A stretch of 64,000 nucleotides of DNA from Candidatus Nitrososphaera gargensis Ga9.2 (GTDB lineage: Archaea; Thermoproteota; Nitrososphaeria; Nitrososphaerales; Nitrososphaeraceae), in NCBI RefSeq assembly GCF_000303155.1, contig NC_018719.1, positions 1,302,001 to 1,366,000 of the forward strand. Direction: 5' to 3'. The notes beneath the pieces are model-generated. The model ran no database searches. It had not been told where the DNA came from and saw only the letters and a program-made list of their open reading frames with translations. Positions 34,670 to 39,562 of this stretch are shown in pieces. Within the stretch, counting starts at the first letter, position 1. Each line of letters opens with the position of its first letter. The translations under genes and the position numbers were made by a program.

Positions 34670-35425
34670 GTGAATGACAATTTTACCAAGGAGAAAGTAT
34701 TAAAGGTGATAATCCCAAGGGATGGAGTGATGGGGACCGCCGACGGAGCGCAGGGTCTTGTGCTCACTGTCGAAGAGCTTCTGGGTCGACCTTTAAACGA
34801 TATTGAAAAGAAATACGCTCCCAAAATCCTTTACGTCAAAGGATCAATGCGAATTCCTTTACCAAGACCCAGAGTGTCGATAGTGGGTTCTAGGAAGGCA
34901 TCCGAAGAGGGACTTCATGCGGCCAACAGAATCGCGAGCACCCTAGTAAAAGATGGAGTTGTGATTGTCAGCGGTCTTGCAGAAGGAATCGATACTTCTG
35001 CCCACCAAGCAGCCCTAGAATCGCATGGACGAACGATCGCAGTTATTGGCACGCCGCTGAACAAGGTCTTTCCTGCAAAGAATTATCAGCTTCAACAAGA
35101 AATTATGAATAACCATCTAGTCATTTCACAATTTCCCATCGGGCATCCAACACGTCCGAAGGATTTTGTTCTAAGAAATCGGACTATGGCACTGATTTCT
35201 GACGCCACAATTATTGTGGAAGCTGGTGAGTTTAGCGGCTCTTTACATCAGGGTTGGGAAGCACTCAGGCTTGGCCGCTCATTGTTCATTTGGAAATCTA
35301 TATTGGAAAATAAAAAACTCACTTGGCCGAGGAAGATGATGCAGTATGGCGCGATGGAGCTTTCCAATCCAGAAGATGTCCTTGAAGTTTTGCCATCAGA
35401 TTTACAGATGCCTTTATTCCAGTAA
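34670..35425 (+). CDS. DprA/Smf-like Rossmann-fold protein
   Basis: 251 residues from GTG at 34670. The DprA/SMF core is clear: VSIVGSRKASEEGLHAANRI, VIVSGLAEGIDTSAHQAALE, GRTIAVIGTPLNKVFPAKNY, VLRNRTMALISDATIIVEAG. No SAM or winged-helix extension. In bacteria DprA loads RecA on incoming DNA; archaea do not normally use it. It is followed after 5 bases by a phosphoribosyltransferase gene. DprA-like plus PRTase pairings occur in bacterial PsyrTA/RqlHI-type systems, so this may be a toxin-antitoxin or defence module. Confidence 0.9.
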   Translation: MNDNFTKEKVLKVIIPRDGVMGTADGAQGLVLTVEELLGRPLNDIEKKYAPKILYVKGSMRIPLPRPRVSIVGSRKASEEGLHAANRIASTLVKDGVVIVSGLAEGIDTSAHQAALESHGRTIAVIGTPLNKVFPAKNYQLQQEIMNNHLVISQFPIGHPTRPKDFVLRNRTMALISDATIIVEAGEFSGSLHQGWEALRLGRSLFIWKSILENKKLTWPRKMMQYGAMELSNPEDVLEVLPSDLQMPLFQ

Positions 35426-35430
35426 CTATA

Positions 35431-36075
35431 ATGCGCATCACTAAAATTGAATTCGGTTCATACCTGACATATTCGCCAAAGTGCGATTCAGATGCAGCTA
35501 AAGCATCAAGAAACGCCATGAGAGCGTTAAAGGACGACGAAGTTCTTCCAAACTCTCAAATTCTGACATCTGAATTCATTGCGAATCTGATCAGAGATAA
35601 TCTCAATAGCTTGCCCTTTTCAAATTTCTTTAAAGCCAAGCCTATTCTAGTTCCCACTCCGCGCAGCTCCCTAATTCGACCAGGCACTCTCTGGGTTCCA
35701 CAACGACTAGCCAATGCACTTGCGCAAAGAGGACTAGGAAAGAATGTTGAGCCTTGTCTTAACCGCTTCAAGGCTGTAAGGAAATCTGCAACAAGTCAAG
35801 GAGACAGGCCAAAGGCATTCGAACATTACAATTCGATGGAAGTGCAAAAAATCTTTCCTGAACCCTCAGAAATTCTTTTGATAGATGATATTGTAACGCG
35901 AGGTGCCACCCTCTTGGGCGCAGCTAACAAATTGGCAGATGCCTTTCCTAGAGCGCACATTCGTGTATTTGCTGCGATGCGAACGATAAGCCCACCGGAT
36001 GTTTTTAGATCACTGTTTGATCCGTGCGTAGGTAATATCGAGTTGAGAGGCATCGATACATTTCGACGACCCTAG
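35431..36075 (+). CDS. ComF-like phosphoribosyltransferase
   Basis: 214 residues with a type I PRTase fold. The PRPP-binding loop is EILLIDDIVTRGATLLGAAN (about 149-168). Upstream are PILVPTPRSSLIRPG and a flexible-loop region rich in Arg/Lys. No N-terminal zinc finger as in ComF. It forms an operon with the DprA-like gene, and its 3' end overlaps the convergent AbrB-like gene by 4 bases. Substrate base unknown. Confidence 0.88.
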   Translation: MRITKIEFGSYLTYSPKCDSDAAKASRNAMRALKDDEVLPNSQILTSEFIANLIRDNLNSLPFSNFFKAKPILVPTPRSSLIRPGTLWVPQRLANALAQRGLGKNVEPCLNRFKAVRKSATSQGDRPKAFEHYNSMEVQKIFPEPSEILLIDDIVTRGATLLGAANKLADAFPRAHIRVFAAMRTISPPDVFRSLFDPCVGNIELRGIDTFRRP

Positions 36076-36266
36076 CTGTCGACCCTTCTAATCTCAATGA
36101 CGGGTTTCTCGTTCCTCTTAACATATTCAAATTCTACAAGCTCTCCGCCCTTGAGCTCCCATTGCTTTACGATTCTGACAGGAATGGTCACAAATAAGCT
36201 TGAGGGATGGTCCTGCCGCTTTCTTACTATGGATCTTGGGTGCTTGGCAAACTTTATCTTGCTCAT
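36072..36266 (-). CDS. AbrB/SpoVT-like protein at the right end of the element
   Basis: ATG at 36266 (MSKIKFAKHPRSIVRKRQDH) gives 64 residues; the frame is open back to 36323. The core is SLFVTIPVRIVKQWELKGGE then LVEFEYVKRNEKPVIEIRR, an AbrB swapped hairpin. It converges on the PRTase gene and is the last gene before the right attachment site. Fourth AbrB-like gene in the element. Confidence 0.7.
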   Translation of the reverse strand: MSKIKFAKHPRSIVRKRQDHPSSLFVTIPVRIVKQWELKGGELVEFEYVKRNEKPVIEIRRVDS

Positions 36267-36363
36267 ATGTGTACCAAAATTGCTTTTTGGAGTCCATAAC
36301 AGGGACTTTTGACCTCTTTTCACTTGAAAATTGCCTCATAAGGATAGTTTAACATACGCATAC

Positions 36364-37261: not shown

Positions 37262-39079
37262 TTACTTTCTTGCTTCGTCGACATAGAATATCGCTTCGTT
37301 TCTTTTGAGCGCGACGCCAGCTGCCAGGTTCAGGATTGAATTGTGCAGCCTTGCAGCATCAGGCTCTGATCCTTCGCTATTGCCGGCGAGCACAAGATGC
37401 AGCTTGATACTTGAGCCAAGGACATCACCCAGCTCTTGGTTCACTGTCGCTGTGTACGGCCGCAGCGCGCCGCGGAAGACATCAGCCCTTGCTCTTAGGA
37501 CGCCAGAGATCTTTTTGCCCACAGGCGCGTCCGGCCCAACGATTACGACTGTGCCCTTAGAGTCCTTGTACTTTGCAGGCTCTTCTACCGCGCCTTGCGG
37601 TGCCATCGCGTTTACCGCTTCCTTTGTGATCAGCCCTGGAATGTAGATAAAGTTGTTGACCAGTGCGTCCCACTGGCTTCTTGAAAGCGAGCTGAATGCG
37701 GCATTGTAGTCATAGTCGCCGGTAAAATGAATGACAGAATCGATCTTGCCAAACTTTGTCCTTGCGGTGTTAAAGATGCGCCTCACACTCTCTTCGTCCA
37801 GCATGTTTATGGCGTGGTTGTGGAAATCTCGGTATTCTTGCATGTCGCTCTGGTTGTTGGCAAGGACTATTACCTGCTTTGCGCCAGCGCCTTGCGCAAG
37901 TCTTGCGACCTGCTTGACCCGCTCGATGTCTTTTTTGGCTGAAGAGCTGGTGGTCAGGATGATGACCTTGTCCTTCAAGTCGGGCTGTGCTGGTCCGTCG
38001 ACTGAGGTTCCAACTATCGGCTTGACAGGGTAGAACACGCGGTCGTTTGGGATCACCCTGCCGTTTATCAGCTTGCTTATCTTCTCGTCGCAGAGGTTCA
38101 TGACCATCTCTGCCACGTCCTCCTGCGTCAAGAACTCGCCGTCAACTATCATCTTGCTAGTGTTATTCTGTATCTTTTCGGCAATTTCCTGCATCTTGGC
38201 AAGAGCGCCTGCAACGGTTTCCGAAAGTTTCTTTATGTTTTCTTCAGATTCTTCTTGCCCACGCGCCTTGGCAATCTCGACCGCCACCTGTCGGCAGCCG
38301 TTTGCGACAACTTCGTCCTGCTCGCCCAGCAGAGGGAGCGCGCCCGCAGTGACCTTCTCGACCTCTATAGAGCTAAGCCCAGGGTAGCCGCCTATGCGCA
38401 GAAATTCGGCGGCAGCCTTTGGATAGACTGTCTTGTATATCCTGTCAGAGTGCACCGGCCCAGGGTTGGTGGATATCGAGCGAATGTCGCGCTCTACCAG
38501 CTCCCACGCAAGGGCCTCTGCAAGGCGGTTCTTGGCTCCCTGTGCCGCCGTGTATGGAGTCCGAAATCTGTAGGGCCTCTGCTCGTAGCGGTTCTCCTCT
38601 GTGAAAAATGTCGCAATCGTGATTATCTTGCCGCCCCTTTCCATCGCGCTCAGACCGCTGACAGAGGTCCAGAACGTGCCTGTCAGGTGGATGGCAACAG
38701 CTTCGCGGAACTCTTTGACGCTTGCATTTGTAAAAGTCTTGACAGGTCCTGAAACACCTGCATTGTTGACAATGATGTCGACCTTGCCAAACTGATTCTT
38801 CAGGCTCGCAAACATGGCGTTTATGCCGGCTTCATCTGCGACATCAACTCTGGGGAAAACCACGACCTTGCCAGAAGATCCGGCAGAAGCGATTATCTTG
38901 TTCAGCATGCTAGCTGTCTGGTCAAGAGGCTCCTTTCTCCTGCCCATGATGACAATGTTGGCACCGTTCTCGGCAAACTTTTTTGCTATTGCCTGCCCGA
39001 TGCCTGTCCCGCTGCCAGTAATAACAACAGTTTTACCGCTAAATTTCAGATTAGATTTGAGAGAAGACTGCTTTTCCAC
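37262..39079 (-). CDS. Tandem SDR-fold reductase, malonyl-CoA-reductase-like
   Basis: 605 residues with two Rossmann units. The first (15-260) has TGSGTGIG (21-28), NNAG (105-108) and YTAAQ at 176-180, so the usual YxxxK Lys is Gln. The second (about 370-600) has lost the Gly-rich loop. The region between them (about 255-345) is helical. The layout and blocks such as STNPGPVHSDRI resemble halves of the bifunctional Chloroflexus malonyl-CoA reductase, built of SDR pairs. A role in the thaumarchaeal 3-hydroxypropionate/4-hydroxybutyrate cycle is attractive but unproven. Confidence 0.75.
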   Translation of the reverse strand: MEKQSSLKSNLKFSGKTVVITGSGTGIGQAIAKKFAENGANIVIMGRRKEPLDQTASMLNKIIASAGSSGKVVVFPRVDVADEAGINAMFASLKNQFGKVDIIVNNAGVSGPVKTFTNASVKEFREAVAIHLTGTFWTSVSGLSAMERGGKIITIATFFTEENRYEQRPYRFRTPYTAAQGAKNRLAEALAWELVERDIRSISTNPGPVHSDRIYKTVYPKAAAEFLRIGGYPGLSSIEVEKVTAGALPLLGEQDEVVANGCRQVAVEIAKARGQEESEENIKKLSETVAGALAKMQEIAEKIQNNTSKMIVDGEFLTQEDVAEMVMNLCDEKISKLINGRVIPNDRVFYPVKPIVGTSVDGPAQPDLKDKVIILTTSSSAKKDIERVKQVARLAQGAGAKQVIVLANNQSDMQEYRDFHNHAINMLDEESVRRIFNTARTKFGKIDSVIHFTGDYDYNAAFSSLSRSQWDALVNNFIYIPGLITKEAVNAMAPQGAVEEPAKYKDSKGTVVIVGPDAPVGKKISGVLRARADVFRGALRPYTATVNQELGDVLGSSIKLHLVLAGNSEGSEPDAARLHNSILNLAAGVALKRNEAIFYVDEARK

Positions 39080-39154: not shown

Positions 39155-39562
39155 CTAGGGCGTTGGTTTGTTGAGTATATGCAGCCGAGTTTTAATGTGC
39201 CCCGCAATCCTGTCAGCGATTTCCAGCATGGCCTGGTTGAAAGCAAACGAGTCTTCGTGAATCCATTTGCCATAAATCCTGATGTGGTCGTCCAAGGGGT
39301 CAACCCTTATCTCGCCTTCGCGCAGCATGACTTCCTTTAGCATCTCAATCAGCTTGGCGTCCTCTTGCAATACCTCGGCAAACTCGTCCGCGCCAGTCCA
39401 CCTGACGCCGACTACTTGCTTGTTGCCAAAATGGCCCTTTGTTATGGGCTCACACCTTGCAAGAAAATTGCCGTTCTCTCCGCTTTCTACCTTCAAGATA
39501 TAGTGTACTTGATAATATTGCAACAGGCCATACGGCAACGGGGTTGGGTCTTGCTTTGGCAT
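39155..39562 (-). CDS. Conserved hypothetical protein (135 aa)
   Basis: MPKQDPTPLPYGLLQYYQVH start; a beta-rich first half (YILKVESGENGNFLARCEPI) and helical second half (AFNQAMLEIADRIAGHIKTR). I recognise no domain. It is followed after 6 bases by nothing on its strand, and its start is about 7 bases below the end of the next minus-strand gene, suggesting an operon with 39569-39871. Confidence 0.7.
   Translation of the reverse strand: MPKQDPTPLPYGLLQYYQVHYILKVESGENGNFLARCEPITKGHFGNKQVVGVRWTGADEFAEVLQEDAKLIEMLKEVMLREGEIRVDPLDDHIRIYGKWIHEDSFAFNQAMLEIADRIAGHIKTRLHILNKPTP

Follow-up and report, generated by a model that had tools for sequence, protein, structure and literature searches.

Malonyl-CoA reductases and the archaeal gap

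The bifunctional malonyl-CoA reductase (MCR; K14468) of Chloroflexus, Roseiflexus and Porphyrobacter is built from four SDR units in about 1220 aa and carries both of its activities in one chain. In the Roseiflexus enzyme (RfxMCR) the active site of SDR1, in the half MCR-N, consists of Thr165 and Tyr172-x2-Arg175-x2-Tyr178-x3-Lys182, and that of SDR3, in the half MCR-C, of Ser731 and Tyr743-x2-Arg746-x2-Tyr749-x3-Lys753 (PMC10470521); these residues were confirmed on a fetched Roseiflexus sequence. Tyr172 and Arg175 bind the carboxylate of malonic semialdehyde, and Tyr743 and Arg746 touch the malonyl end and are the proposed protonators of the leaving CoA. Mutation of Lys753 abolishes RfxMCR activity, the 2'-phosphate of NADPH is bound by Arg41 and Arg616, and Lys919 contacts CoA (PMC10470521).

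The original prediction started from a missing reductase gene in the thaumarchaeal 3-hydroxypropionate/4-hydroxybutyrate cycle, and for malonyl-CoA the literature bears this out. In 2018 the genes for the malonyl-CoA, acryloyl-CoA, succinyl-CoA and succinic semialdehyde reductases of N. maritimus were listed as unidentified, the activities having been measured (PMC6038301). The malonyl-CoA reductase gene of ammonia-oxidizing archaea (AOA) was likewise stated to be unidentified in 2020 (PMC6964070), and a marker list from 2026 gives the AOA variant no marker for this enzyme (PMC12894919). The malonic semialdehyde reductase of N. maritimus is, according to papers citing Otte 2015, the iron-type alcohol dehydrogenase (Fe-ADH) Nmar_1110. 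Other papers or supplements may contain an earlier proposal.

Architecture and active site of the tandem SDR protein

The window analysed here, 64,000 nucleotides from the genome of Candidatus Nitrososphaera gargensis Ga9.2 (one contig of 2,833,868 bp), contains on its minus strand a GTG-initiated ORF at 37262-39079 encoding a 605-aa tandem SDR protein, the candidate malonyl-CoA reductase. The fusion of an intact-looking and a degenerate SDR unit that had been described for it proved to be real. Unit 1 (residues 12-229; 38393-39046, minus strand) is a Rossmann domain with an intact cofactor site, as seen in the AlphaFold2 model and in a Pfam adh_short match over residues ~12-212 (3e-40). Unit 2 (residues 365-605; 37265-37987, minus strand), delimited by the same model and by hhalign to a generic SDR profile, gave a weak SDR profile match of 22 bits at about residues 360-500 and lacks both the Gly-rich and the YxxxK motif. 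A helical insert between strands 6 and 7 of unit 1 (residues 206-341; 38057-38464, minus strand), located by DSSP of the model, motif-to-motif lengths and hhalign, lies at the place of the extra domain of MCR-C. Neither PF02774 (Semialdhyde_dh) nor PF00465 (Fe-ADH) is among the Pfam matches of the protein.

Conservation was followed in an alignment of 43 orthologs with 47-91% identity. The SDR motifs TGxxxGIG, here TGSGTGIG in mostly invariant columns (residues 21-28; 38996-39019, minus strand), and NNAG are present, with G22, G24, G26, I27, G28 and N105-G108 invariant. The invariant GRR at residues 46-48 occupies the 2'-phosphate-binding place of Arg41/Arg616 in RfxMCR, and NADPH is therefore the expected cofactor. 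Mean conservation peaks in the active-site stretch (residues 157-185; 38525-38611, minus strand), in which 20 of the 29 residues are invariant, and is lowest in unit 2 except for one helix (residues 526-553; 37421-37504, minus strand) with the conserved residues R529, F535, R540, P541, T545, Q548 and E549. This helix aligns with the part of SDR4 in MCR-C where Arg1164 lies.

The active-site residues T157, Y170, R173, Y176 and Q180, invariant in all 43 orthologs, are equivalent to Ser731/Thr165, Tyr743/Tyr172, Arg746/Arg175, Tyr749/Tyr178 and Lys753/Lys182 of RfxMCR. The archaeal motif reads Y-x2-R-x2-Y-x3-Q against Y-x2-R-x2-Y-x3-K in both MCR halves, and every position of [ST]...Y-x2-R-x2-Y-x3-K other than the Lys is matched in 43/43. 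The Lys-to-Gln replacement had been pointed out from the single sequence YTAAQ (residues 176-180), and it turned out to be general. The catalytic triad Ser/Thr-Tyr-Lys is incomplete in every ortholog, T157 and Y176 being kept and the Lys, four residues past the active-site Tyr, being Q180 (codon at 38540-38542, minus strand). Since Gln occurs in 43/43 orthologs and also in 92/92 copies from fetched loci, a partly redundant set, it is neither a sequencing slip nor chance. Membership of the SDR superfamily by fold stands, because the profile match does not depend on the Lys. The pattern Y..R..Y...[KQ] was found in 43/43 AOA proteins, 14/14 MCR-N and 19/19 MCR-C, but in 0/44 single SDRs and in 0/19 single SDRs among the 20 best Chloroflexota matches, the twentieth being an MCR; in total this gives 33/33 MCR halves and 0/63 single SDRs.

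With MCR-C the archaeal protein shares the tandem of SDR units, of which the first carries a helical insert and the second is degenerate, the same rigid domain arrangement, the S/T...Y-x2-R-x2-Y motif, a basic residue for the 2'-phosphate of NADPH and a Lys, K302, at the position of the CoA-contacting Lys919; R213 is aligned with Arg785 (both by hhalign). It differs from MCR-C in its archaeal origin, an identity of 16-20%, the Gln in place of the catalytic Lys, a position equivalent to the CoA-binding Arg1164 of SDR4 that hhalign showed not to be conserved, and a shorter insert, with motif-to-motif lengths of mostly 123-135 (about 125) against 171-188 (one 242). With MCR-N it shares the fold, the signature and a PGP-x-x-SDRI stretch after strand 6, but it has Gln for Lys182, which is needed in aldehyde reduction, and a longer insert than the 66 residues of MCR-N; in single SDRs this length is mostly 44-54. 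At half the size of K14468, and standing alone, the protein is not filed under the bifunctional enzyme, because it has 605 aa and two SDR units. The bifunctional family as defined excludes it by its half size and lack of the Lys, and the best name is MCR-half homolog, one that may work like MCR-C.

The Sulfolobales malonyl-CoA/succinyl-CoA reductase (aspartate-semialdehyde-dehydrogenase-like, K15017) catalyses the same reaction as is proposed for the tandem SDR protein and has an unrelated fold. Unlike that type of enzyme, the tandem SDR protein is without PF02774, and AOA have only the usual two PF02774 proteins.

Predicted fold, phylogeny and distribution

The AlphaFold2 model, built on the 43-sequence alignment, had a mean pLDDT of 89 and a pTM of 0.90. 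In a Foldseek search of the PDB with this model, 25 of the 26 best matches (ranks 1-24 and 26; E 1e-25 to 2e-18) were MCR structures, either half or full-length, aligned along the full tandem length, and the next tandem SDR in the PDB, 2et6, superposed poorly (rmsd 18.9 A). The best structural Z in VIA-align was that to RfxMCR-N (Z 36.1, 490 residues, 2.7 A, 20% identity), and a bacterial MCR-C also matched (Z 34.9, 520 residues, 3.1 A); single SDRs matched about residues 10-350 only. The predicted structure confirms the proposed likeness to half of the Chloroflexus enzyme, and the model has the full-length fold of an MCR half, SDR-insert-degenerate SDR. The SDR-SDR arrangement of MCR halves may just reproduce ordinary SDR dimer geometry, so kinship cannot be concluded from the likeness in geometry alone.

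Profile comparison with the MCR halves, the check originally suggested, went against the prediction: the generic SDR profile outscored the MCR profiles for both units, and sequence similarity alone would thus not single out MCR. For unit 2, hhalign scores were 34-38 against MCR SDR2/SDR4 and 113 against the generic SDR profile, with unit 2 colinear with the MCR second units in the full-length alignment; no specific kinship of unit 2 with SDR2/SDR4 emerged from these scores. In the Chloroflexota search some single SDRs matched the family profile better than MCR did. When the family profile was run on four MCR-bearing genomes, MCR SDR3 or SDR1 was the top match in three (Chloroflexus, a second Chloroflexota and an Erythrobacter), and in the fourth it was a 733-aa ORF fetched as an MCR relative. 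The top rank of MCR in raw phmmer and hmmsearch results was discounted, as one and the same part of the query is matched by two MCR units and the per-domain MCR scores of 65-88 bits are not above those of ordinary SDRs (up to 92). A tblastn search of MCR-C against plasmids gave no match.

Phylogeny, in which grouping with unrelated SDRs had been named as the outcome that would speak against the prediction, gave a different result. In a tree of 68 unit-1 domains, 39 of them single SDRs, the AOA proteins, MCR-N and MCR-C formed one clade apart from the single SDRs (support 99/93), with AOA as sister of both MCR halves (93/62). With the signature columns removed, a quick free tree search missed the clade of AOA and MCR, but the tree in which this clade was held was the best found (+7.7 log units, p-AU 0.667). 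By these trees unit 1 shares its descent with MCR SDR1/SDR3, apart from single SDRs.

Full-length or near-full-length orthologs were found in 144 of 200 genomes of the class, as a single copy in each. Across 201 genomes of the order, the gene and archaeal amoA were both present in 106 and both absent in 89, and the 6 discordant genomes are all fragmented or incomplete assemblies of AOA families. No full-length relative was found among the non-AOA genomes within a sample of 398 Thermoproteota, nor in the 350 Chloroflexota searched. The same pattern is expected of every gene that the AOA ancestor acquired, and co-occurrence with amoA alone cannot link this one to CO2 fixation.

The tandem SDR gene was not seen clustered with other genes of the cycle. 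In 6 of the 7 Nitrosopumilaceae neighbourhoods examined, a small MaoC-like ORF directly follows the tandem SDR gene on the same strand, a few bases apart (L183:7567-8010, L186:9754-10215 and four others). Its best PDB match was 1q6w (E 2e-4), it has no Pfam match, and its single-sequence structure prediction reached a pLDDT of 33; the two genes perhaps form an operon, and the neighbour is a weak hint at acyl-CoA metabolism. The copy in the window genome, outside the window (G000:C1:1039867-1040311), appears split into two neighbouring pieces that lie in different frames, and one of them contains an internal TAG; it is either a decayed gene or a sequence error. Upstream of the SDR gene, at 39155-39562 (minus strand), lies a gene for a conserved 135-aa protein with no Pfam match, which was present in the neighbourhood in 9 of 14 AOA regions compared. 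On the plus strand, at 34670-36075, PADLOC detected two adjoining genes, one DprA-like (a match to ShosA, E 1e-77) and one for a phosphoribosyltransferase (a match to ShosT, E 8e-21); this ammonia-oxidizing archaeon thus has matches to both parts of ShosTA, an anti-phage toxin-antitoxin system. Convergent to this putative pair is a small AbrB/MazE-like gene at 36072-36323.

Proposed reaction and competing readings

The protein is a strong and testable candidate because it is AOA-wide, absent from the non-AOA relatives searched, predicted to have the fold of an MCR half and equipped with the substrate-binding signature. We consider it probable, with moderate confidence, that it is the NADPH-dependent malonyl-CoA reductase (CoA-acylating) of the thaumarchaeal 3-hydroxypropionate/4-hydroxybutyrate cycle. 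The original prediction had offered malonyl-CoA and malonic semialdehyde as alternative substrates. Fold, active-site signature, phylogeny and distribution favour the first, and the second is less apt; as a malonic semialdehyde reductase is known in Nmar_1110, the conversion of malonyl-CoA to malonic semialdehyde is the step most likely filled.

In the proposed mechanism NADPH would be bound by unit 1, and Y170 and R173 would grip the carboxylate of the malonyl group, the role that their Tyr/Arg counterparts have in MCR-C. Hydride would be transferred to the thioester carbon, with CoA released and malonic semialdehyde as product, in a CoA pocket closed by the helical insert and the degenerate unit 2. 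A Gln in place of the proton-relay Lys could be tolerable in thioester reduction, where the proposed protonators of CoA-S- are Tyr743-Arg746, and Gln180 might halt the enzyme at the aldehyde stage. In mesophilic AOA the aldehyde would then be converted to 3-hydroxypropionate by the Nmar_1110-type iron alcohol dehydrogenase, a member of an unrelated family acting in the same cycle.

Three main cautions apply: the Lys has become Gln, the sequence is SDR-like in a general way, and Asd is a published rival. Against the MCR role stand the loss of RfxMCR activity on mutation of Lys753, the very position at which the archaeal protein has Gln, and the lack of conservation of the CoA-binding Arg1164. 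The more detailed picture, a stand-alone half-size archaeal MCR that branched off before the bacterial internal duplication, works with Gln and stops at malonic semialdehyde, is held only tentatively.

The loss of the Lys and the better match to the generic SDR profile would also suit another acyl/carboxylate SDR-derived enzyme, or a binding or scaffold protein disabled by the Gln, with Asd or GabD as the malonyl-CoA reductase of the cycle. Both are earlier candidates and rose under carbon limitation together with known cycle enzymes in the 2025 proteome of N. viennensis (PMC12542715). However, the 20 invariant residues of the active-site loop are unusual for a dead enzyme, and PF02774 proteins number exactly two in 22/22 AOA; of six non-AOA relatives, five likewise have two and one has none. 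As these relatives carry the same pair, Asd is a shared housekeeping gene and not an AOA-specific reductase, and we regard this reading as unlikely.

Reduction of succinyl-CoA, alone or together with malonyl-CoA as in the promiscuous Sulfolobales enzyme, is rather improbable. The succinyl-CoA reductase gene, too, is among the AOA genes listed as yet to be identified (PMC6038301), promiscuous enzymes are known in this cycle, and the same acyl-CoA and carboxylate chemistry would use the Y/R pair; but the solved relatives with the signature all act on malonyl-CoA or malonic semialdehyde, and succinyl-CoA, one carbon longer, would need a larger pocket.

The distribution of Fe-ADH bears on the second reduction. 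Strong matches to the Nmar_1110 type were found in the AOA families f1 and f2 and none in Nitrosocaldus-like f3 or in f5, and eight f3 and f5 genomes carry amoA and the tandem SDR gene with no strong Fe-ADH match. Absence of Fe-ADH has been reported for Nitrosocaldaceae (PMC5797428), partly from which we infer that f3 is this family. Reduction of malonic semialdehyde by the tandem SDR protein, or of both steps through to 3-hydroxypropionate, would fit these Nitrosocaldus-like genomes and the aldehyde step performed by MCR SDR1 with the same signature, but it is improbable, as Lys182, which serves aldehyde reduction, is an invariant Gln here and a specific enzyme for malonic semialdehyde is already present in mesophilic AOA.

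For the preferred reading as malonyl-CoA reductase, the step concerned is the first reduction after the primary carboxylation, an activity measured in extracts. In the ocean and in soils, ammonia-oxidizing archaea rank with the most abundant autotrophs. Given a conserved candidate in single copy, one assay would suffice to close the cycle; such a candidate would connect archaeal and bacterial 3-hydroxypropionate chemistry and would provide a compact one-step enzyme and a marker gene.
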